Shown: positions 40,669 to 53,244 of the stretch, piece after piece
Layout: each line of letters opens with the position of its first letter
Numbering within the stretch: the stretch's first letter is position 1
Assembly: GCF_018304825.1 (NCBI RefSeq)
Contig: NZ_CP072648.1
Span: 1,099,501 to 1,163,500, forward strand
DNA length: 64,000 bases
Origin: Chloracidobacterium validum
Lineage (GTDB): Bacteria > Acidobacteriota > Blastocatellia > Chloracidobacteriales > Chloracidobacteriaceae
Direction: 5' to 3'
Translations under genes and position numbers: made by a program
The notes under the pieces: model-generated
What the model was told of the DNA's origin: nothing
Seen by the model: only the letters and a program-made list of their open reading frames with translations
Databases searched by the model: none

Positions 40669-41131
40669 CTTGCACCTCCACGTTGTAGCGGGTCAGGGGT
40701 TTGGGGGGCGGGCCGGCAACGTTGTTCCCAGTTTTGGGATCGTAAACGCCGCCGTGACAGGCGCAGTAAATGCGCGATTGTTCTGGTTCGTAACTGACCG
40801 TGCAGGCCAGGTGCGTACACACGGCTCCAAGTGCCACCCAAGTCCCATCGGTGTGGTGGATGAGCATGGCGGGCGTCGTGCCAAACTTGAACATCAGCGA
40901 CGAACCTGGCGGGAGCTGATCGGCCCCGTCCAGAACGGCCTGCGTCACCATGCCCTGGGCTGCCGCTTTGCGGGCGGGCGTAGCAAGATATTGATAGACC
41001 GGATAGCCAATCAGTCCGGCATAGCACGCGCCGAGCGCGCCAATCCCAAGGGCAACGAAGGTTCGGCGGCCGGTGTCGGCCAGGACCGGATCGTGTTCGG
41101 CAGGATGGGAAGTGGCTTGAGCATCAGGCAT
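40640..41131 (-). CDS. Rieske iron-sulfur protein of a bc/b6f-type complex
   Basis: A 163-residue Rieske protein. The N-terminus has a Tat-like GRRTFVALGIGALG (twin Arg at 22-23) leading into one membrane helix (about 25-45). The cluster-binding boxes are CTHLAC at 105-110 and CACHGG at 123-128: C105, H107, C123 and H126 as 2Fe-2S ligands, C110 and C125 as the disulfide. A PPPKPLTRYNVEV segment follows, as usual. The frame is open far upstream into the preceding gene; the ATG at 41131 gives a normal length and overlaps that gene's end by 8 bases. Confidence 0.94.
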   Translation of the reverse strand: MPDAQATSHPAEHDPVLADTGRRTFVALGIGALGACYAGLIGYPVYQYLATPARKAAAQGMVTQAVLDGADQLPPGSSLMFKFGTTPAMLIHHTDGTWVALGAVCTHLACTVSYEPEQSRIYCACHGGVYDPKTGNNVAGPPPKPLTRYNVEVQDGRILVTKA

Positions 41132-42224
41132 GGCGGGCAACTCCTTTGGCTTTGGCCAGCACGTACGCCATCCAGCCGATGACGCCAAGGCCGGCGACAA
41201 ACAAAACAAGAAAGATGACAACAACCTGCCAGTTAGAGACGACCGGCTGCTGCCAGACATCAAATCCTTTCGCCAGCAACGTGAGGTCGCGGATGCCATC
41301 GCGGGCAATCACCGCCATCGTGGTGGCCAGGAATGCCGCGCCGGCCGCGCCAATAGCCGGTATCCAACCCTTCATCTTCAGCGCCAAAAAACCAAAGGCG
41401 GAGAGTAACGCCGCGCAAAGCAGAAAGCCGGGCAAGCTCCAGGCATAAAGGTGATGATTGGCCAGGGCAGTCTTGACAATTTCCGGCTGGACGCTATGCG
41501 CCCAAACGCCCACCGCTATGGAAAGCAGCCCGCCAAGTCCAGCCAGCCAGCTTCCCCAGCGTCCCATCAGCGAGCGAACCGCGGCATCCGCGTGACTGTA
41601 GTGCGCCACCAGCAACAGTCCCGCGCCCGTCACCGCAAATGAGGTCAGCATCATGAAGAAAAAGCGGGGCAGGGTGGTCGGGTCGTCCGTCGGAAGTTGC
41701 GCCCCCAAGGCACTGGCTCGATAGAGGTCAAGCCAGACTTCAGGGCGCAGCATGAGCGTCAGGTTAGTGGCGTAAATCCGCCCAATGTAGGCGACACCAA
41801 CCAACGAGAGCAGGCTCAAGTACCAGAAAGCACGGCGCTGGTCAGCTCGGCGGGCAGCGACATACAGTAGATAGTAGGCACCGCTCAACAAGAAAATGAC
41901 CGCTAACCAGTAAGCGCCAATCAGAATGCTGCTCGTGTACAAGGCGCGTCCGTAAAGCACCTGAGCGAAGAGGAGTGGCGGAATCCCCAGGTTGACCAAG
42001 TAGGTCATCACTACCGGCAACCGATGGGCAATATCGGCGGAGGCCCCGTAGAGCGGTGTGTCGGCGTCGTTGCGGGTGCGAAAATTCCACAGTGCCGCCA
42101 GCGTCAAGCCGCCGACCATGAGGTAAATCGTCAGGAAGTGCAGCGCGAGCGTGATAATGTGGAGAACTTTGAATAACCAGACGGGGGCCGGAAGGGGAAT
42201 CGGATCGAGCGTCGGAAACGGCAT
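41124..42224 (-). CDS. Polytopic membrane protein resembling cytochrome bd subunit I
   Basis: First gene of the respiratory operon, 366 residues with about nine hydrophobic helices. H22 and H29 in VLHIITLALHFLTIYLMVGG echo the first helix of the CydA-like protein encoded last in the operon. PRFFFMMLTSFAVTGAGLL resembles the CydA helix that normally carries the heme b558 His (pattern RF-H-M), but Phe is present instead. I infer a degenerate bd-superfamily subunit, perhaps binding one heme; this is a motif-level judgement. The start ATG at 42224 has a good Shine-Dalgarno (gaggaga on the minus strand). It overlaps the Rieske gene by 8 bases. Confidence 0.65.
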   Translation of the reverse strand: MPFPTLDPIPLPAPVWLFKVLHIITLALHFLTIYLMVGGLTLAALWNFRTRNDADTPLYGASADIAHRLPVVMTYLVNLGIPPLLFAQVLYGRALYTSSILIGAYWLAVIFLLSGAYYLLYVAARRADQRRAFWYLSLLSLVGVAYIGRIYATNLTLMLRPEVWLDLYRASALGAQLPTDDPTTLPRFFFMMLTSFAVTGAGLLLVAHYSHADAAVRSLMGRWGSWLAGLGGLLSIAVGVWAHSVQPEIVKTALANHHLYAWSLPGFLLCAALLSAFGFLALKMKGWIPAIGAAGAAFLATTMAVIARDGIRDLTLLAKGFDVWQQPVVSNWQVVVIFLVLFVAGLGVIGWMAYVLAKAKGVARHA

Positions 42225-43784: not shown

Positions 43785-44576
43785 ATGGCAACGCTGGGAC
43801 AGGAACTCAAGCAGCAGCGAGAGGCGCGTGGCAAGTCGCTTGAGGAAATATCACGGACGACAAACATCGCGGTTCGACTTTTGCACGCCATCGAACGTGA
43901 TGACTACCGGGAACTGCCGGGCGAACTTTACAACCGCTCGTTCATTCGGCAGTTGGCGCAAGCCGTGGGCTACGATGAGGCGCGCGCGCTTCAGCTCTAC
44001 GAACGGCAGTCAGGAAGCCCGCACATTCCCACCGATGAAGAAGTCAGTCGCGCGCCGGAGATACTCCCGCCGCCCAAGACCGGCAACGCCCTTCTGTTGA
44101 CACTGAGCCTAGCCGTCGTGGTGGTCGTGGCGGCCGGCACGTCCTATGCCTTCCCCGGTTGGTGGCAGGTCTTTGGCGGTTGGTTTGTTTCGTTGAAATC
44201 CGCCCCGTCACCGCAAGCGCCGCCGGCGGTAGAGCCAACCCCCCCACCGACTGCGCCGACGGAGGCCCCGCCGCCGCCGATGGAAGGGTTGACCTTAGAA
44301 CTACGCGCAACGGGCAAGTGCTGGACGCGCCTTCAGCTTGACGACAGCCGGCCGGAGGAGTTCGTGTTGCTGCCGGATGATGTTCGGCTTTACCGCGCAA
44401 AAGAGAAAATCGTCCTCTCCCTTGGCGCGCTTCAAGCCGTCTCGGTAACCGTCAACGGGCGCGCGCTCCAGTTGCCTTCGCGCGATGGCATCACGGTCAA
44501 GCGGGCCGTGATTACCCCTGATACGCTTGAAACCGGTGTGGTGAGCGGACTAACCCGGGCCAGTAACCTTCAATGA
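43785..44576 (+). CDS. rodZ: RodZ-like cytoskeletal/HTH membrane protein
   Basis: A 263-residue RodZ-type protein that links MreB to cell-wall synthesis. Layout: an N-terminal Xre-like helix-turn-helix domain (about 3-75) with LGQELKQQREARGKSLEEISRTTNI and LPGELYNRSFIRQLAQAVGYD; one membrane helix (about 101-122); a Pro/Thr-rich periplasmic linker (about 138-172); and a C-terminal DUF4115 beta domain (about 173-260) with LELRATGKCWTRLQLDD and VSVTVNGRALQLP. The stop overlaps the next gene's ATG (ATGA), suggesting coupling to the hydrolase. Confidence 0.88.
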   Translation: MATLGQELKQQREARGKSLEEISRTTNIAVRLLHAIERDDYRELPGELYNRSFIRQLAQAVGYDEARALQLYERQSGSPHIPTDEEVSRAPEILPPPKTGNALLLTLSLAVVVVVAAGTSYAFPGWWQVFGGWFVSLKSAPSPQAPPAVEPTPPPTAPTEAPPPPMEGLTLELRATGKCWTRLQLDDSRPEEFVLLPDDVRLYRAKEKIVLSLGALQAVSVTVNGRALQLPSRDGITVKRAVITPDTLETGVVSGLTRASNLQ

Positions 44577-45703
44577 CCGGCCTGTGGGGTAGGGGACGCC
44601 AACTTGCGACGGTCTGCCATCGGGTGGTCGCTTTTTGGCTTTTGGGTTGGCTGTGGAGCTACGGACTGCCGACCGCAGGTGGGGCGACATCGGGTGTTTG
44701 TCACCAGGATTTGTCTTGGCTGGCGCGCTATCCCGTGCGGTACGCCGCCGCGCCGCTCCAAACTCCACAGGGCACGGTCAACGCCTGGCTATATCAGCCG
44801 GAGGGACTTACCGACGCGCCGGCGTTGGTGATGGTGCATGGCGTTCACAAGGACGGCGGGCAGGAAGCGCGCCTGAAGAATTTTGCCCAGGCGCTGGCGG
44901 CTGCCGGTTTTACGGTTTTGACGCCCCATGTGCAGTCGCTTGCCGACTATCGGATTGAAAAAAGCGCGATTGAGGTGATTGGCTGGTCGGCCCAGGCGCT
45001 CCAGCGCCGAACAGGGCGACGGGTTGGCGTCATGGGGTTGTCCTTTGCCGGTGGCTTGTGTCTGATGGCGGCGGCTGACAAACGTTTTGCCCCTGCGATT
45101 GGCTACATTTTGGCGGTTGGGGCGCACGCTGACCTTGGGCGGGTGACGCGCTTTTTGCTCACTGGTGAGATTGCCACGCCGAATGGCGAGACGTTGAAGT
45201 TACAGGCCGACCCCTACGGCGCTTTGCTGCTGGCCCACACCCATGCCGCAGTCTTGTTTGCCCCATCAGATGTTGAGCCGGCCCGCGCGGCCCTGCGGTC
45301 TTGGCTGTGGGGTGAGCCTGACCGGGCGCGCCGGCAAGCCGCGAAGCTGTCTCCGGCCGGTCAGAGGTTGGCGCAGGCGTTGTTCGATGGCGATTATGCG
45401 GCGGCAACCCCAAGCTTGCTGCGCCAACTCGAGCGGCGACGGAGTGCGCTCCGCGAGGTTTCGCCGCAGGATGCGCTGGCGCGGATTCGCTGCCCAGTGT
45501 TCCTCGTCCATGGGGCGCGGGATGCCGTTGTGCCGCCATCCGAGACGCAGTGGCTAGCCCAGGGGCTTGGCGGCCGCTGCCGCGTCCTGATCAGCCGGGC
45601 GGTTGGTCACGTCGAAGTCAACGACAGCGCGACGCCCTTGGAAAAGCTAGAGGTCGCGCAGTTCCTGAATGATTTTTTGGCGACGGCGCGCGCCATTCGC
45701 TAG
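44573..45703 (+). CDS. Exported alpha/beta hydrolase (dienelactone hydrolase-like)
   Basis: A 376-residue hydrolase with an N-terminal hydrophobic export segment (about 17-40). The fold starts near residue 60; PALVMVHGVHKDGG supplies the oxyanion region, GLSFAGGLCL the nucleophile Ser (about 158), VFLVHGARDAVVPPSE the acid Asp, and VGHVEVND the catalytic His. Substrate is unknown. The start overlaps the rodZ stop (ATGA). It converges with lptE, with only 17 bases between the stops. Confidence 0.82.
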   Translation: MTGLWGRGRQLATVCHRVVAFWLLGWLWSYGLPTAGGATSGVCHQDLSWLARYPVRYAAAPLQTPQGTVNAWLYQPEGLTDAPALVMVHGVHKDGGQEARLKNFAQALAAAGFTVLTPHVQSLADYRIEKSAIEVIGWSAQALQRRTGRRVGVMGLSFAGGLCLMAAADKRFAPAIGYILAVGAHADLGRVTRFLLTGEIATPNGETLKLQADPYGALLLAHTHAAVLFAPSDVEPARAALRSWLWGEPDRARRQAAKLSPAGQRLAQALFDGDYAAATPSLLRQLERRRSALREVSPQDALARIRCPVFLVHGARDAVVPPSETQWLAQGLGGRCRVLISRAVGHVEVNDSATPLEKLEVAQFLNDFLATARAIR

Positions 45704-45720: not shown

Positions 45721-46311
45721 TCAAAACCGTTCAAGCATCGTCGTCACGACGCTCCGGGCAAAGTCGCGGGCAAGACGGTCAACGGCCGGATCTTCTTCGT
45801 TGAAGAAGGAGCGCGGGTCGGATGAAAACTCGTATTCACCACGAAATTCAAGGTTAGGGTTGTCAAACAACACGCGGTTGCGGGTTTGGTCGCGCAGCGT
45901 GACGCCGGAGCGAATGGCAATCTGAAACAGTCGCACCGTGCCGCGATTATCAACGAGTGCCTGCCCCGTGGTCACGGCTTTGATGTCGCCGGAGAGCACG
46001 GCATCCGCCCGTGCCGGATCGTTGACCAGGGCGACCGGCAGCCGGCGGCGCAGGATTTCTTCAGCCACAGCTTGAGTAAATCGCTGCTCGATTCGGTAGC
46101 GCAGGGTTTGATTGGTGAAGGGCTGGATCGCCAGTGTTCTGACGTCTGGCGGGAATGCTCCGCTGGTGTCGAGCCGACGGTATCCGCACGGCCCGGCGCC
46201 AAGGCAAGCCACGAGCGAAAACCAGAACAACAGAGCCGCGCGCCGTCGGACGCCGGGGCGCGCCAGACTGGACGCGCAACCAGTCAGCTTTGGCATGGTA
46301 GGTTTCATCAT
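45721..46311 (-). CDS. lptE: LptE-like LPS-assembly lipoprotein
   Basis: A 196-residue outer membrane lipoprotein that should plug LptD for lipopolysaccharide insertion. A basic N-terminus and hydrophobic stretch lead to GPCGYRRL, giving a lipidated Cys. Downstream, VRTLAIQPFTNQTLRYRIEQRFTQAVAEEILRR is the typical LptE/lipopolysaccharide-assembly start, followed by ADAVLSGDIKAV and a C-terminal FARSVVTTMLERF helix. The ATG at 46311 shares its A with the last base of the TAA of the large ATPase (TAATG), so it is translationally coupled. Other ATGs at 46308 and 46296 are possible. Confidence 0.78.
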   Translation of the reverse strand: MMKPTMPKLTGCASSLARPGVRRRAALLFWFSLVACLGAGPCGYRRLDTSGAFPPDVRTLAIQPFTNQTLRYRIEQRFTQAVAEEILRRRLPVALVNDPARADAVLSGDIKAVTTGQALVDNRGTVRLFQIAIRSGVTLRDQTRNRVLFDNPNLEFRGEYEFSSDPRSFFNEEDPAVDRLARDFARSVVTTMLERF

Positions 46312-49300
46312 TAGCTTCGTTTCTGAACGTCAAAGGTGATGGGCGACTCATCTGGCAGCCCGGCCATCCATTCGGCAATCCGCGCGGCCAGGTCAGCCTT
46401 GGTGGTGGACTCACCAGGTGAGAGTGGCAGGGTCGTTGTCACTGGCGTCACCGGGGTGCCAGCTAGGAGGGCGGCGTTGATGTGGTCCATCGCTTCCGGC
46501 GCAACCACGAAATCCGTGGATGGCGTTGGAGAAGCCACCGCCGTGAGGGTGGCGGTCACGAGTCGCTCATCGGCTTCAGGGAGTCCGAGCGTCCGCAAGT
46601 TTTGGCTGATGAGGTTGCGGTTTTGCGTAATGCACTGCCGGAAGTGCCGAATTCCCTGGTGAACGATGGCTTTGAGTTGGTCAATTTGCTTGGGCAACGG
46701 CGGGAGTGCGCGCCGCCGTATCAAGCCACCGACGAGCGGTTGATGTTCGAGGAACTCACGCAGATGAAGCGCTCGCCGCCGGGTTTCAATGTCGGCGAGA
46801 ATTTGCCTGGCGTGGCGGGCATACTGCTCGTCGGCGATCACCAGTCGGGATAGCGTTTCAAAGAGTCGCCACACCGGACTGGCCAGGAAGTTCGTGAGCA
46901 ACGATAGGTCAATGTTTTTCGTCGCTTGTTCGTCCTGCATAATGCAATCTTCGATGTAGTGCTTTTTGAAGCGTTCAAAGACTTGCTCGAAGCGGATGCG
47001 CTTGTCTTCATCGAGCAGGCGGTGCGGGTGCTCAAAGAAGTTTCCGAGTTCCCGGCGCGCGTTGCGGGCATCGGCGTCGGCAACGGGCAGCGCGCTCAAC
47101 GTGTAGGATTTCGCCTTGACATAGAACGGCAGCCAGTCGAGAAACTCGACCAGAACCCGCAAGTCAATGACTGCGCGCTGGTAAATGGTCGGGTTGGCGG
47201 CAAAAATATCCACGATGCGGGCCAGACCCATTTCAAGGGAAATGCGCTCAAACAGGACGGCTTCAACGGCGGCGGCAGTGGTTTCAAAGTAGCGCTTGCA
47301 GGTGATGATGAGCTGCCAGGTGCGAGTCGTCAGCATCTCCATCGGCAACGACTCGAAGCGTTCGGCAAGGCGGTAACTCAACCATTTCTGATGCCACTGG
47401 GCCAGGCTCTCACGCACCTGCTTCCGGTCGGTGGCCAGGTCAGGAAGGTCAAAACGCTCCGTCAGCAACCGACACCATTCGGAAAGTGTTTCCGAAGCAT
47501 AGGTAATGGCGGCCGTGCGCCGGACCGAACCATACTGCCGAAAGCTCACATCCTGGGTCAGTTCGGCGGCGGTGAAAATACGCAGCCCCGACACATCCAT
47601 CAACTCGATGCGCCAACCGGCAACCAGAGCCATCATGACGATTTGCTGCGCCGGTTCGAGGAGTCCATACGGCTCGCGGCGCAGCGTCTGGTAAACAACT
47701 TGAACCGGCACCGGTTCTGACCCGGCTGCTTCGACCAAGCGCAGCACCTCGCTGATGCAGGGTTCGCCCAGCGCCTCGTCGCGGTCCATGGCCAGTTGGT
47801 ACAGTCCATCCCGCTCGACGACGATATGGAACGGAGCCGCGAAGCGCTGTGCGATTTCCTGCACCGTCGCGTCGGTTGGATTGAGGCCGCCAAGCAAGCC
47901 AAGCACCAGGCGCTTGGTTTCCCGCTCGGTCAGCGGCGCCGGGAAGATGGGGTGCGCCGGAAACCTGAGGTCGAGCGGCTTGCGAATCACAGTACTCAGA
48001 AAGTCATGCAGGGTGCGCGGTAGTCCGTCTGGAAACAGTTCGGTGAGCTTGTGGCGCTCACCGTTAGCGGCGACCAGTTCGCCAGCTTCGACATACAGTT
48101 TCAAGAAAATGGCACGGTTGAGCGTTTCGAGCGCAGCGACCCGGTCTGAGATTTCATCCCCAAACACGTCTTCCCCGCGGGTGTAAGCAATCCAGAGCGA
48201 CTTGAGGGTTTCGGTGTCCTCGGCGCTGAGGGGTGCCGGACACCAGTAAAGCAAGCTCGGCGTCGTGGTGCTTGTGTTGGGAGGCAGGGGCGACTGACTG
48301 CTGCCAATGCAGAGCTGCCAGTCGTATTCACAAAGGTCTTCAGCCCAGTGGTAGGTCACGGATGGCTTGGCGTCTGTCTCGGCTTCGTCACCCGTTGGAA
48401 TAATGACCGTTGCCGGCGTGAAAGGGTCGCCGCTGCGTTCAATACCGACCGGTGGATTGGTAAAGATTTCTGGGGGTGCGCCAAAGCTGACGATGCCCCG
48501 CCGTCCGGTATTTCGCCAAAGGATAGTCATTTCATCCCGGTAGGTTTTCGCGCCGCTGAGGAGCAGGGCGTCGAGCGTAAAGGGAAAGTCGTGAAAGAGG
48601 GCGCTGCCGCCCAGTGTAACCAGGAGCGCGTCAAGCGTATCGTCATTGGGTGTTTCGGCCAGCGCGACCTTGAGGCGGGCTTCTGGGTCAAACTGCTCTA
48701 GCACCGTGAGACTGTAGCGGCAAATAGCTGTGCTCGTGTCTTTGATGATTTGTCCTTCGCTGTGGGCGTGCAGGTCGTCAAGCAACAACGCTGCCTGGTT
48801 ATAGCCAATATCGCCCAGCATCATGGCGTTGGTAAGCTCATCGGCGCTGACTGACCGCCCAATCAGCGAGTACAGAAACAGCCCCTTGAGGAGCAGCTTG
48901 GCCGGGATGCGCTGCTCGAAGCTCAGTGCCGGAAGCCGCATCGTTGAAAGATAGTCATACATCGCAACGGCGCGGGCCAGGGTCGGGTGGCGTTTCAGTT
49001 CAAAGTCATACTTGTCAAACAGGTCATCCAGCGAGATGAGCTGCATGGGGCGGCGGCGCAGCGCACCCCCGATAATGCCGTTGATGAAGCTGAAGAGTGA
49101 AAAGCTGTCACAGTAGGTTGAGAGTCCCGGCGCGACTTCCAGGACGGCAGGATGAATCGGGTAGAGGCTGCAAAACTCTTCTTCGCTCCAGTGAAAGCGC
49201 GGGAGTGACTTGAGCGTTTCCTGGTAAAGCGCCGTCAGTTCGGCCCGTTGCTGTGGGGTTTTGCGAAAGACGGCCTGGTCGGTTATCCGGCGCAGATTGT

Positions 49301-50021
49301 CAAGGGTGAGGGCGTCAGTTTGATAGTCCGCCGTCAACCGCGCGGCCATGCCTGTATGGGGCGCAGTAACGTCGCTATCCAGCGCCAGGAGCAGGGCAAA
49401 CGGCAGACTCCGCGATTTCTCCGCCAGCTTCGTCAACCAATCGAGCGTATCTTGCACCAGGGCGCGCCGTGGCATGCGCAGCGCATCTGAGATTTCATCA
49501 ATGACAAACAAGAAGGCCATGCCCGGAAATAACCGACTGGCCAGTAGCTCGCAGATTTGGTTGCCCTCGATGGCTGAAAACCATTGCGTGTCGTCAAAGG
49601 CGATGGGCGATTCCGGGATGTTGGCCAGGGCGTCGCGCAGCAGTGTGGCGAAATCCGTGAGTTCCTCGGTCAGTGGCTTTCCAGAGATATACACCGGAAG
49701 AAACGTGACACCTTCGAGCCGCTTGACGGCATTGGCCAGCGGTGGATTGTTAGCCACCGTGTGGCGGGTCTTCGGCGTGCAGGCCAGCGCCCGCACCACG
49801 GCCAGGGTATGGCTCTTGCCGGTGCCCCGCGCCCCGGCAATCAACCGCGCCGCCGCCGGGCTTTTGAGCGAAGCAACCCCCTCAATCAACCGCGCCGTCA
49901 GCCGTGAGAGTTCCGATGTGAAGTGATATGACCGGATGATGCGCTCGGCATTGGCATCCAGAAAATTCACCAGGGGATCAATCGGCTGATAGTCAAAATA
50001 GGCGCGGATACTTTGCAACAT
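46311..50021 (-). CDS. Large P-loop ATPase of unknown function
   Basis: A 1236-residue protein without signal peptide or membrane helix. The Walker A motif is GARGTGKSH at 63-71 and the Walker B is FLFVIDE at about 170-176, followed by SDALRMPRRALVQDTLDWL and, near 240, a RITDQAVF sensor-like region. The remaining ~900 residues are mainly helical, with no zinc, nuclease or methylase motif that I can see. The arrangement recalls the very large ATPases of BREX-type (BrxC/PglY) or DUF6079 proteins, but no defence partner gene is present. It sits 195 bases after lpxA and is coupled to lptE by TAATG. ATG 50021 is preferred over a TTG at 50039. Function is unassigned. Confidence 0.8.
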   Translation of the reverse strand: MLQSIRAYFDYQPIDPLVNFLDANAERIIRSYHFTSELSRLTARLIEGVASLKSPAAARLIAGARGTGKSHTLAVVRALACTPKTRHTVANNPPLANAVKRLEGVTFLPVYISGKPLTEELTDFATLLRDALANIPESPIAFDDTQWFSAIEGNQICELLASRLFPGMAFLFVIDEISDALRMPRRALVQDTLDWLTKLAEKSRSLPFALLLALDSDVTAPHTGMAARLTADYQTDALTLDNLRRITDQAVFRKTPQQRAELTALYQETLKSLPRFHWSEEEFCSLYPIHPAVLEVAPGLSTYCDSFSLFSFINGIIGGALRRRPMQLISLDDLFDKYDFELKRHPTLARAVAMYDYLSTMRLPALSFEQRIPAKLLLKGLFLYSLIGRSVSADELTNAMMLGDIGYNQAALLLDDLHAHSEGQIIKDTSTAICRYSLTVLEQFDPEARLKVALAETPNDDTLDALLVTLGGSALFHDFPFTLDALLLSGAKTYRDEMTILWRNTGRRGIVSFGAPPEIFTNPPVGIERSGDPFTPATVIIPTGDEAETDAKPSVTYHWAEDLCEYDWQLCIGSSQSPLPPNTSTTTPSLLYWCPAPLSAEDTETLKSLWIAYTRGEDVFGDEISDRVAALETLNRAIFLKLYVEAGELVAANGERHKLTELFPDGLPRTLHDFLSTVIRKPLDLRFPAHPIFPAPLTERETKRLVLGLLGGLNPTDATVQEIAQRFAAPFHIVVERDGLYQLAMDRDEALGEPCISEVLRLVEAAGSEPVPVQVVYQTLRREPYGLLEPAQQIVMMALVAGWRIELMDVSGLRIFTAAELTQDVSFRQYGSVRRTAAITYASETLSEWCRLLTERFDLPDLATDRKQVRESLAQWHQKWLSYRLAERFESLPMEMLTTRTWQLIITCKRYFETTAAAVEAVLFERISLEMGLARIVDIFAANPTIYQRAVIDLRVLVEFLDWLPFYVKAKSYTLSALPVADADARNARRELGNFFEHPHRLLDEDKRIRFEQVFERFKKHYIEDCIMQDEQATKNIDLSLLTNFLASPVWRLFETLSRLVIADEQYARHARQILADIETRRRALHLREFLEHQPLVGGLIRRRALPPLPKQIDQLKAIVHQGIRHFRQCITQNRNLISQNLRTLGLPEADERLVTATLTAVASPTPSTDFVVAPEAMDHINAALLAGTPVTPVTTTLPLSPGESTTKADLAARIAEWMAGLPDESPITFDVQKRS

Positions 50022-50216
50022 AAACTGTGGACGGACCAAACGTGAACGATGACTGGGCGTGCGCTAAGGATTGGCTTTCAGAAACAAAGAGAGTGAACAG
50101 GCCTGCGCCACCTCGCTTTTTGAGCGTGCCTCCTGTTCGGTATGTCCTGAAGCTTCGGTATATCCTGAGCGTGCGCCTGTCTTGGGCGTTGGTGGTTGGT
50201 GTTCGAGAAACCGCGC

Positions 50217-50990
50217 TCATTTAATAACACCGCGCTGGGAGGTGGCAATAAAGTCGAGCAAGATGTGGATGCGTGGATGGTTGCCAAACGTTTCCGTCAT
50301 GGCCGCCACGGCCTGGGAGGTGTTGAGTTTCGAGTTGAGCAGCAGCCGGAAGGCTTGCTCGATGGCCCGCAGGTCTTCGCTGGAAAACCCCGCACGCCGT
50401 AGCCCAAGGCTGTTTGGCCCGTAACATTTGGCGTGGTTGCCGACACTGCGCGCATAGGGTAGGGCATCTTTGACCACGACGGAATAGGCGCCGATGAAGG
50501 CATGCGTCCCGACCCGACAAAATTGGTGGACGCCAACGTATGCGCCAAGTGTGGCGTGATCATGAACCTCGACGTGACCGGCCAGCGACGCGCCATTGGC
50601 CATGATGATGTGATTGCCAACGATGCAGTCGTGGGCGACGTGGCACTGCGCCATGAGCAAGTTATCGTTGCCGACGCGCGTCACCCCGCCGCCGGCGCCG
50701 GTGCCACGGTGCAGCGTGGCAAACTCACGGATGACGTTGCGCTCACCGATGATGAGTTCGGTTCGCTCGCCGGCATATTTCAAATCCTGTGGGTCCTGAC
50801 CAACCGAGGCAAACGGAAACAAGCGGGTCCCGCGTCCGATCCGGGTTGGGCCGTCAATCACACAGTGCGCCCCAACCGTCACGTCGTCTTCGAGCACGAC
50901 GTCCGCGCCGATGACGGCATAGGGACCAATCGCAACGTTTTCACCAAGTCGAGTTTGGGGGTTGATGATGGCGGTTGGGTGAATGGGCAT
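50217..50990 (-). CDS. lpxA: UDP-N-acetylglucosamine O-acyltransferase
   Basis: A 257-residue LpxA, first enzyme of lipid A synthesis, transferring a hydroxyacyl chain from ACP to UDP-GlcNAc. It starts with IHPTAIINPQTRLGENVAIGPYAVIG and shows left-handed beta-helix hexapeptides over about 1-185. The catalytic His lies in NNLLMAQCHVAHDCIVGN (about H120). Other hallmarks are HHRGTG-like LHRGTGAGGG and the C-terminal GLRRAGFSSEDLRAIEQAFR. It starts 3 bases after the upstream hydrolase stop. The other lpx genes seen here (lpxD with fabZ) are 10 kb away. Confidence 0.95.
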   Translation of the reverse strand: MPIHPTAIINPQTRLGENVAIGPYAVIGADVVLEDDVTVGAHCVIDGPTRIGRGTRLFPFASVGQDPQDLKYAGERTELIIGERNVIREFATLHRGTGAGGGVTRVGNDNLLMAQCHVAHDCIVGNHIIMANGASLAGHVEVHDHATLGAYVGVHQFCRVGTHAFIGAYSVVVKDALPYARSVGNHAKCYGPNSLGLRRAGFSSEDLRAIEQAFRLLLNSKLNTSQAVAAMTETFGNHPRIHILLDFIATSQRGVIK

Positions 50991-51990: not shown

Positions 51991-53244
51991 TTACCGGACT
52001 CTCTTCCGTTTGCGTCGCAGGAAGTCCATCATAATGTACTCGCCAAGGGTCATAACGGTCGTGAAGTAGGCTTTCCCCTGGGCAATGCTGGTGACTTGCT
52101 TGATGAAGTTCACCAGATAGGGGTCGTCGGCCAGCATGAAGGTATTGATGGCAATGTTGCTGCGGCGACACTGGGCCACTTCCTTGTAGGTGGCGTCCAT
52201 GATCATGGGATCGAGACCCATGGAGTTTTTGTAAATCCGCCCATCTTCCAGCGTAAGCGCCGAGGGCTTGCCGTCCGTGATCATGATGATTTGCCGCATG
52301 TCCACCCGTTGGGCCAGCAGCAGGCGCCGCGCCAGCTTGAGTCCTTCGGCCGTGTTGGTGTGGTACGGGCCAACGGTGAGTTGCGCCAGCTTGCCAAGCG
52401 GCACTTCCTCGGCTGAGTCGTGAAAGAGCACCAACTTGAGCGTGTCGCCGGGATACTGCGTGCGGATGAGATGCGTCAGCGCCAACGTCACCCGCTTGGC
52501 CGGCGTGAAGCGGTCTTCACCATAGAGAATCATGCTGTGGCTGCAATCCAGCATCAGCACCGTTGCGCACGAGCTGGCGTACTCCGACTGGTGAACCATC
52601 AGGTCACCATACTCGACGTCGAGCGGTACACCCAGCCCGCTGCGCCGAATGGCCGACAGCAGCGTGGCGTTGACATCCAGGTTGAGGGCGTCGCCGAACT
52701 CGTAGGGCTTACTCGATTGAAACGCCTCGATGCCGGTCGAAAGGTGTTGGGTGTCGTGGCGTCCGGCGTAGCTCTTGCCCAGCGAGCCGAGCAGTTGGCT
52801 CAGGGCCTTGTAGCCGAGAAAGTCGGTGCCCTTTTCGGTCAGCTCAAACTTGACCCGCGCCCCGCTGTCACGCTCGATGCGTCCTTCTCCGGGCTTGGGC
52901 GGCGCGCCCCCGCGTTCATCCCGCGTGGCGCGCAAGTAACCCTGTTCGAGCAGCCGCTGGATGAGCGCGTCCACCAGTTCATCGAGCTTTTTCTCATCCA
53001 GGCCGCCAGACTCATCCTGGAGCGCCTGCATTTCAGCTTCACTCAATAGCTGGCCAGAACGAATGAGCTGCCGAATCGCTTCGCGGAGGGCTTCCAGGGA
53101 TTGGTCCGGGTCCTGAATCCGCCGCGACCAACCCCCGTTGGAAAAGCCGCTTTGCAGGAAAAAGTCGGAGAGCTTTTCGAGCAGGTTTTCAAGATTGAAG
53201 TGGTCAAGGTCAAGCCCATCCCATTTTCCGTAGCGCGTAAGCAT
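51991..53244 (-). CDS. VWA-domain protein
   Basis: A 417-residue cytosolic protein. Residues 1-150 are helical and charged; the von Willebrand A domain spans about 225-400, with an intact metal site DCSHS (D233, S235, S237), a conserved Thr in [12 protein letters not shown] and ITDGKPSAL. Such proteins often work with MoxR-type AAA+ ATPases, but none is encoded next to it; the only large ATPase in this gene set is the unusual one at 46311. The gene is the first of a minus-strand run (VWA, hydrolase, lpxA) and is divergent from nuoA. Confidence 0.85.

Follow-up and report, generated by a model that had tools for sequence, protein, structure and literature searches.

A BrxC-like AAA+ ATPase conserved outside BREX in Chloracidobacterium and its possible connection with envelope synthesis

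The large ATPase gene that lies between lpxA and lptE in Chloracidobacterium validum very probably encodes a BrxC-like scaffold standing outside BREX. The fuller statement, that it is a housekeeping scaffold of this kind, switched by ATP and working on envelope synthesis, is the explanation we favour, tentatively and at somewhat less than an even chance. The window referred to below is the whole stretch of DNA analysed, 64,000 nucleotides of contig NZ_CP072648.1. The literature on DUF6079, DUF2520, BREX with Acidobacteriota or penicillin-binding proteins (PBP), and Chloracidobacterium holds, at the level of listings and without supplements, no description of the gene or of its branch, and the string "acidobacter" is absent from the main text of PMC12839542.

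The gene and the parts of its product

The predicted gene is a real one: its reading frame lies on the minus strand, is open throughout from an ATG at 50021 to a stop at 46311, and encodes 1236 residues; a TTG at 50039 is an alternative start that would give 1242 residues. The features are as follows.

46311-50021, minus strand: BrxC/DUF6079-type AAA+ protein, 1236 residues (reading frame, PF19557 at 53.4 bits, BrxC fold, orthologues)
48987-50021, minus strand: ORC/Cdc6-like AAA+ module, residues ~1-345 (AlphaFold model and VIA)
49809-49835, minus strand: Walker A GARGTGKSH, residues 63-71 (sequence)
49494-49514, minus strand: Walker B FLFVIDE, residues 170-176 (sequence)
48687-48986, minus strand: first winged-helix region, residues ~346-445 (secondary structure of the model; BrxC 1-551 aligns to residues 3-439)
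47787-48686, minus strand: alpha+beta region, residues ~446-745, with an unordered linker at 534-550 (model; position as in BrxC, PMC12839542)
47508-47786, minus strand: second winged-helix region, residues ~746-838 (NCBIfam BrxC at 746-884, below cut-off; hhalign at 767-885)
46314-47507, minus strand: all-helical C-terminal domain, residues 839-1236 (model pLDDT 89; family f32 retains this part next to PBP genes; the window protein has lost the Cys motif)
46311-46313, minus strand: stop codon of the ATPase
45721-46311, minus strand: lptE (PF04390, 52.1 bits against a cut-off of 23)
50217-50990, minus strand: lpxA (TIGR01852, 331 bits against a cut-off of 231)

The initial annotation had reported the frame and the motifs GARGTGKSH and FLFVIDE, and all of these are confirmed in the sequence, as are the position between lpxA and lptE and the coupling to the latter: the TAA of the ATPase and the ATG of lptE share one base (TAATG), and 195 bases separate the end of lpxA from the ATPase start. 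A scan for promoters and terminators found one promoter-like site against 1.5 in shuffled sequence and three terminator-like sites against 6.5, counts that are not above the shuffles and make the scan uninformative. The protein is acidic (pI 5.5), and BrxC is likewise acidic. Some 900 further residues had been described as free of motifs; two winged helices with an alpha+beta region between them lie there, matching the architecture of BrxC.

Relationship to BrxC, DUF6079 and ORC/Cdc6 proteins

Judged by profile matches and by the predicted model, the protein is a member of the BrxC/DUF6079 branch of the ORC/Cdc6-type AAA+ proteins, built of an AAA+ module, two winged helices and a separate helical C-terminal domain. 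Pfam DUF6079 (PF19557) matches residues 8-296 of the window protein (E 1.1e-14, gathering cut-off 23 bits), and the best match in the PADLOC library is a BrxC-PglY model at 41.7 bits; the NCBIfam model BREX_BrxC remains below threshold, with 23.4 bits against a cut-off of 400. One family member, L040, matches DUF6079 in the C-terminal part (669-1214), the whole protein scoring 82.7 bits. With the A2 profile, an alignment of 64 relatives, a DUF6079 protein from a Klebsiella plasmid aligns across residues 25-1200 at probability 98.6 (E 5e-16). With BrxC of E. fergusonii pEFER the alignment is local only (hhalign, 767-885 to 802-923, probability 47), in a region that overlaps the Pfam BREX_BrxC_wHTH domain at 749-865 of that protein. 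Against the PDB, the window protein had no match by sequence, and the A2 and A3 profiles had none of significance (lowest E 0.45 for A2 and 0.019, to a PilT, for A3).

The AlphaFold model of residues 1-1200 (mean pLDDT 87.3, pTM 0.50) places an AAA+ module, a winged helix, an alpha+beta region, a second winged helix and a helical C-terminus in this order, with domain boundaries set by eye; the published order in BrxC (PMC12839542, PMC13326643) is ORC/Cdc6 AAA+, wHTH, alpha+beta, wHTH and coiled coil. The top Foldseek match is Acinetobacter BrxC 9zll (E 8e-8), with which VIA aligned 412 residues, within 3-439, at Z 19.6, rmsd 6.7 and 12% identity; BrxC 9zdx followed at Z 19.4, and the best entry other than BrxC was ORC2 at Z 13.6. 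Structure prediction, proposed earlier as a check, thus returned BrxC as the best fold. The BrxC fold, an AAA+ module plus wHTH1, is present in the model, and BrxC 1-551 includes wHTH1 (PMC13326643). The C-terminal domain, modelled alone (838-1236, pLDDT 89.3), has no PDB fold match at E <= 0.001, and its best VIA Z of 6.5 among 281 chains is within the range of unrelated helical models, so that a new fold is not demonstrated.

The likeness to BREX/DUF6079 proteins, earlier taken to be one of general layout only, is therefore one of homology and fold. As to a full-length match to a characterised family, the match exists (in Pfam and, nearly end to end, by profile), but the family is uncharacterised outside BREX. 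Like DUF6079 proteins (PADLOC BrxC/PglY-type), the ATPase has an N-terminal AAA+ module and about 1240 residues; unlike them, it scores 53 bits to the Pfam model where a true member, the Klebsiella comparator, reaches 1312, its locus has no methylase or PglZ neighbours, most of its relatives carry a C-terminal Cys motif that six DUF6079/BrxC-type comparators lack, and the catalytic Glu is usually lost in those relatives. With BREX type I BrxC (Acinetobacter 9ZLL/9ZDX; E. fergusonii pEFER) it shares the best solved fold and the weak second winged-helix match, but at 12-13% identity, below the NCBIfam cut-off and with no BREX locus; its C-terminal domain also differs in having no match among solved structures, BrxC itself being solved for the N-terminal part only (PMC13326643). 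ORC/Cdc6 initiators belong to the same AAA+ clade, whereas the ATPase is longer, has the alpha+beta and helical C-terminal regions, and gives no significant sequence match to them. Separately, a conjugative IncN plasmid encodes a DUF6079 protein (L215:11974-15699) close to arsenic genes; the gene table, which is incomplete, names no BREX gene around it.

Active site and Cys motif

The Walker A lysine (K69) is kept in all 63 A2 rows that have a residue there, one row being gapped; D175 and K254 are each present in 64/64 rows, and position 371 is Arg in 62 and Lys in two. The residue after the Walker B Asp is Thr in 56 rows, Asp in four, Gly in three and Glu in one, and that one row is the window protein (E176), the catalytic Glu being absent in 63/64. 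Rows from families f22 and f38, read separately from A2, carry Asp there, and comparators keep the Glu (LFLVDEVG in BrxC, LLICDEIL in DUF6079). In BrxC, the substitution E269Q lowers ATPase activity and the protein dimerises with ATP (PMC13326643). Most relatives probably bind ATP and act as scaffolds more than as motors, hydrolysing little of it; having the Glu, the window protein may still be able to hydrolyse ATP, and the Asp of the four A2 rows and of f22 and f38 may also work as a catalytic residue. The AAA+ module would bind ATP and assemble protomers as in BrxC, and, given that the catalytic Glu is missing from almost every aligned relative, ATP would serve less as fuel than as a switch for assembly.

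The C-terminal half of most relatives bears a motif of the form C-x(11-16)-C-x-C-x-F, found in 57/64 rows of group A, 3/3 of f22/f38, 7/7 of paralogue B and 9/9 of f32. It is found in none of the five paralogues of the receiver group, in two of eight comparators (L178 and L179) and in none of the six of DUF6079/BrxC type. The seven A rows without it are the window protein, L050 and L051 (both Chloracidobacterium), L054 (an N-terminal fragment), L079, L086 and L105; it is absent from all six congener loci as well. Such a motif, as C-x13-C-x-C, could bind zinc or an iron-sulphur cluster and gate the AAA+ scaffold, which would make the family a redox- or metal-responsive regulator. Its distribution among relatives and comparators agrees with this, and so does a FUR gene that follows downstream in 34 of the 84 loci described below, with Fer2 genes in many of them. 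But two comparators carry the motif, the receiver group does not, and the window protein and its six congeners have lost it, so that such a regulator cannot explain the window gene; we regard this reading as improbable.

Conservation, selection and the question of phage defence

"Orphan", the term first applied to the gene, does not describe it, for an acidobacterial family exists. A search of 39 genomes, its own and relatives, gave a match in 21; the gene is in 7/7 Chloracidobacterium genomes, 3/3 others of the family and 4/4 of the order. The other six Chloracidobacterium homologues are 82-87% identical to the window protein, and five are full length and stop-free; in the sixth genome (G002) the gene is broken by contig ends, with one internal TAG reported in its second half. 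Across the phylum, 50/297 genomes had a match; among the matches listed, 26 of 37 same-class genomes had one (one of them weak, E 2.6e-6) and 11 had none, and the gene is in 6/6 genomes of another class. A scan of named genomes found 91 stretches, of which 80 loci were kept, all labelled as Acidobacteriota, chiefly Blastocatellia and Pyrinomonadaceae, except one labelled Actinomycetota and one labelled only "bacterium". Against five congeners the NG86 dN/dS of the ATPase is 0.059-0.087, compared with 0.067-0.123 for lptE and 0.076 for the membrane gene at 41124-42224; the RodZ-like gene gives 0.098-0.106 and the gene of the S15-type hydrolase 0.11-0.19. Because of saturation in dS (1.3-2.0 for the ATPase, 1.2-2.2 overall), only the rough ranking counts. 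On these comparisons of sequence, the ATPase is under purifying selection and is a core gene inherited with the chromosome.

In an unrooted tree of 39 chosen rows over the first 560 residues, with L216 and L169 on long branches, a 99/99 split separates the eight BrxC/DUF6079 comparators from the chromosomal family (A, B, C, f22, f32). Group A does not form a single clade: the receiver group falls within it, so that two changes are needed. Two odd relatives, L178:125-5434 (1769 aa) and L179:3165-7502 (1445 aa), carry the Cys motif and group with the comparators in this N-terminal tree. Paralogues with a receiver domain (PF00072) in the C-terminal half are found at L049:7346-11062, L131:6040-10242 and L132:4477-8244, and proteins combining DUF4388 with DnaJ or TPR occur after the L131 paralogue and beside the related L133. 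The C. validum genome itself holds a 1011-aa paralogue with the Cys motif (L031:6005-9040; contig 1, 250004-253039), upstream of P-II-like and ammonium-transporter-like genes (named by eye), to which all ten genus and family genomes searched have a match.

A lone defence gene derived from BREX was among the possibilities raised at the outset. The fold and the best library matches, BrxC-PglY models at 42 bits, would fit such an origin. The absence of defence neighbours holds good: no PglX or other BREX gene is among the seven flanking genes scanned (lptE, lpxA, two hydrolases, VWA, RodZ-like, NosL). Against a lone defence gene, every congener searched has the ATPase, its dN/dS is low, and most rows have lost the catalytic Glu. 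PglZ (PF08665) was found in 0/7 Chloracidobacterium and in 3/20 genomes at E <= 0.001, two of them over the cut-off and one of these two in the same family (G007), in a search whose control was positive in 2/14 genomes. Viral contigs gave 233 pattern matches but no relative, phages gave none either, and plasmids gave two records, which match residues 11-291 at 20-21% identity. The phylum does have BrxC proteins of BREX type (L175 and L176), which reach 1819 and 2095 bits in that PADLOC library, the gene of the latter adjoining PglX (1289 bits), and which lie across the tree from the chromosomal family. We therefore reject defence as the function of this core gene and consider it very improbable.

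Gene order in Chloracidobacterium and other Blastocatellia

The gene had been described as lying inside a lipid A gene run whose order might recur in relatives. The lptE side of this stands: lptE is downstream on the same strand in 7/7 Chloracidobacterium, adjacent in six and separated by about 1.7 kb in G001 (L035). The lpxA side does not, since lpxA flanks the ATPase in the window genome but is upstream in 0/6 congeners with the upstream flank read, and a meaningful linkage to lpxA was rejected; a DUF512/radical-SAM gene is upstream in five of those six (not in L044). Beside lptE, and convergent with it, the window carries RodZ-like and S15-type hydrolase genes (43785-45703), which recur at L045 and at all but one of the five congener loci L032-L036. 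A 417-aa VWA_2 protein encoded at 51991-53244 was not found in the congener flanks read, so that the upstream side has been rearranged in the window genome.

Outside the family of Chloracidobacterium, the next gene is usually DUF2520. Neighbours were counted over 84 loci with at least 500 bits to the A1 profile, Chloracidobacterium included, drawn from the named loci, the window, and L033, L034, L035, L038, L041 and L043; 114 proteins were found overall, the same gene appearing twice in several cases. The 84 loci come mostly from one family and are not independent, and Pfam identities of neighbours were taken from representatives. A DUF2520 gene is downstream in 60/84 (59/74 where 600 bases or more of flank are available), and upstream, in 62/84, there is a divergent gene for an M48 protease (79 loci having 900 bases or more on that side). 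PF10728 was absent from 10/10 genomes of the Chloracidobacterium family searched, its control search being positive in 2/14 genomes, and literature naming DUF2520, as far as accessible, gives it no role. The position of the ATPase gene thus varies outside the genus, which makes the lptE link local to Chloracidobacterium; the variable position named at the outset as evidence against the link is present in part, beyond the genus, and lptE is kept in 7/7 genomes within it.

Linkage to class A PBP genes in other families

Three further acidobacterial families, f22, f32 and f38, belong to classes other than Blastocatellia. The ATPase gene directly follows a class A PBP gene in 4/4 f22 genomes. Of 15 f32 genomes searched, six have no match at all and nine have a match to the C-terminal part; in all nine a PBP gene is upstream on the same strand, adjacent in eight and about 2.3 kb away in G241. 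A PBP gene is thus upstream in 13/13 f22 and f32 genomes that have the gene or its derivative; there is no adjoining PBP gene in f38 (0/2 genomes). The Pfam check covered two PBP genes from f22 and two from f32: PF00912 and PF00905 are above cut-off in both f22 genes, and UB2H (PF14814) exceeds its cut-off in L167 and falls short of it in the remaining three. Since the tree joins f22 to f32 (85/85, a support under the starred level), the PBP link may be a single event.

Seven of the eight f32 derivatives tested have no P-loop pattern and measure 366-815 aa; the eighth, of G173 (1040 aa), keeps Walker A and has LDN at Walker B. The f32 loci (L169-L173, L192, L194, L195, L217) form a decay series in which the AAA+ module is lost and the helical Cys-motif domain is kept beside the PBP gene. 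In f22 and f38 (L165, L166, L167, L180, L168) the ATPase is followed by a small protein of ~186-202 aa with an export-like N-terminus by eye, which overlaps the ATPase stop by four bases in 4/4 f22 genomes; in f38 it follows in G085, and the contig of G313 ends inside the ATPase gene. In Pfam the small protein has no match at E <= 0.01, and a search as loose as E <= 10 gave nothing above a cut-off.

Proposed role

The earlier suggestion of an envelope ATPase is kept as a possibility, and we propose a role in the envelope, for which the evidence is gene order: PBP in f22 and f32, lptE in Chloracidobacterium. Because the gene for the C-terminal domain adjoins PBP1b-like genes in two families and lptE in Chloracidobacterium, this domain would be the output part, acting from the cytoplasm on envelope synthesis. 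Counting against an envelope role, Blastocatellia loci, the window included, have no PBP match at E <= 1e-5 and are linked instead to DUF2520 and the M48 protease, f38 has no adjoining PBP gene, and six f32 genomes have no match.

The winged helices hint rather at DNA binding, although the protein is acidic. The ATPase might be a chromosome-acting, DNA-binding protein of ORC/BrxC type, concerned with replication, the nucleoid or transcription, with its envelope neighbours accidental. ORC/Cdc6 folds are among the next best after BrxC, two winged-helix regions are present, BrxC binds DNA (PMC13326643), the receiver-domain fusions in paralogues resemble signalling or regulation, and neighbours differ between families. 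On the other side, the winged helix at 746-838 is not basic (median net charge -1 over A2), though comparator BrxC is acidic there too, and most f32 derivatives keep the C-terminal part beside PBP with the P-loop gone. We consider this alternative rather unlikely.

Going further than the envelope role we favour, one may picture BREX BrxC and a housekeeping sister lineage as two uses of one ancient scaffold, the lineage being an ORC-like scaffold, switched by ATP, that controls envelope synthesis and partners a class A PBP from the cytoplasm, with the helical C-terminal domain as an effector able to outlive the ATPase; this is conceivable but doubtful. BrxC-like ATPases are taken as marks of phage defence, and the defence library matches this one weakly. 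A branch of core genes outside defence, with a catalytic site altered in nature, would offer an outside comparison for the way BrxC uses ATP. Should the PBP link be functional, it would be a new way of controlling peptidoglycan synthesis from the cytoplasm.
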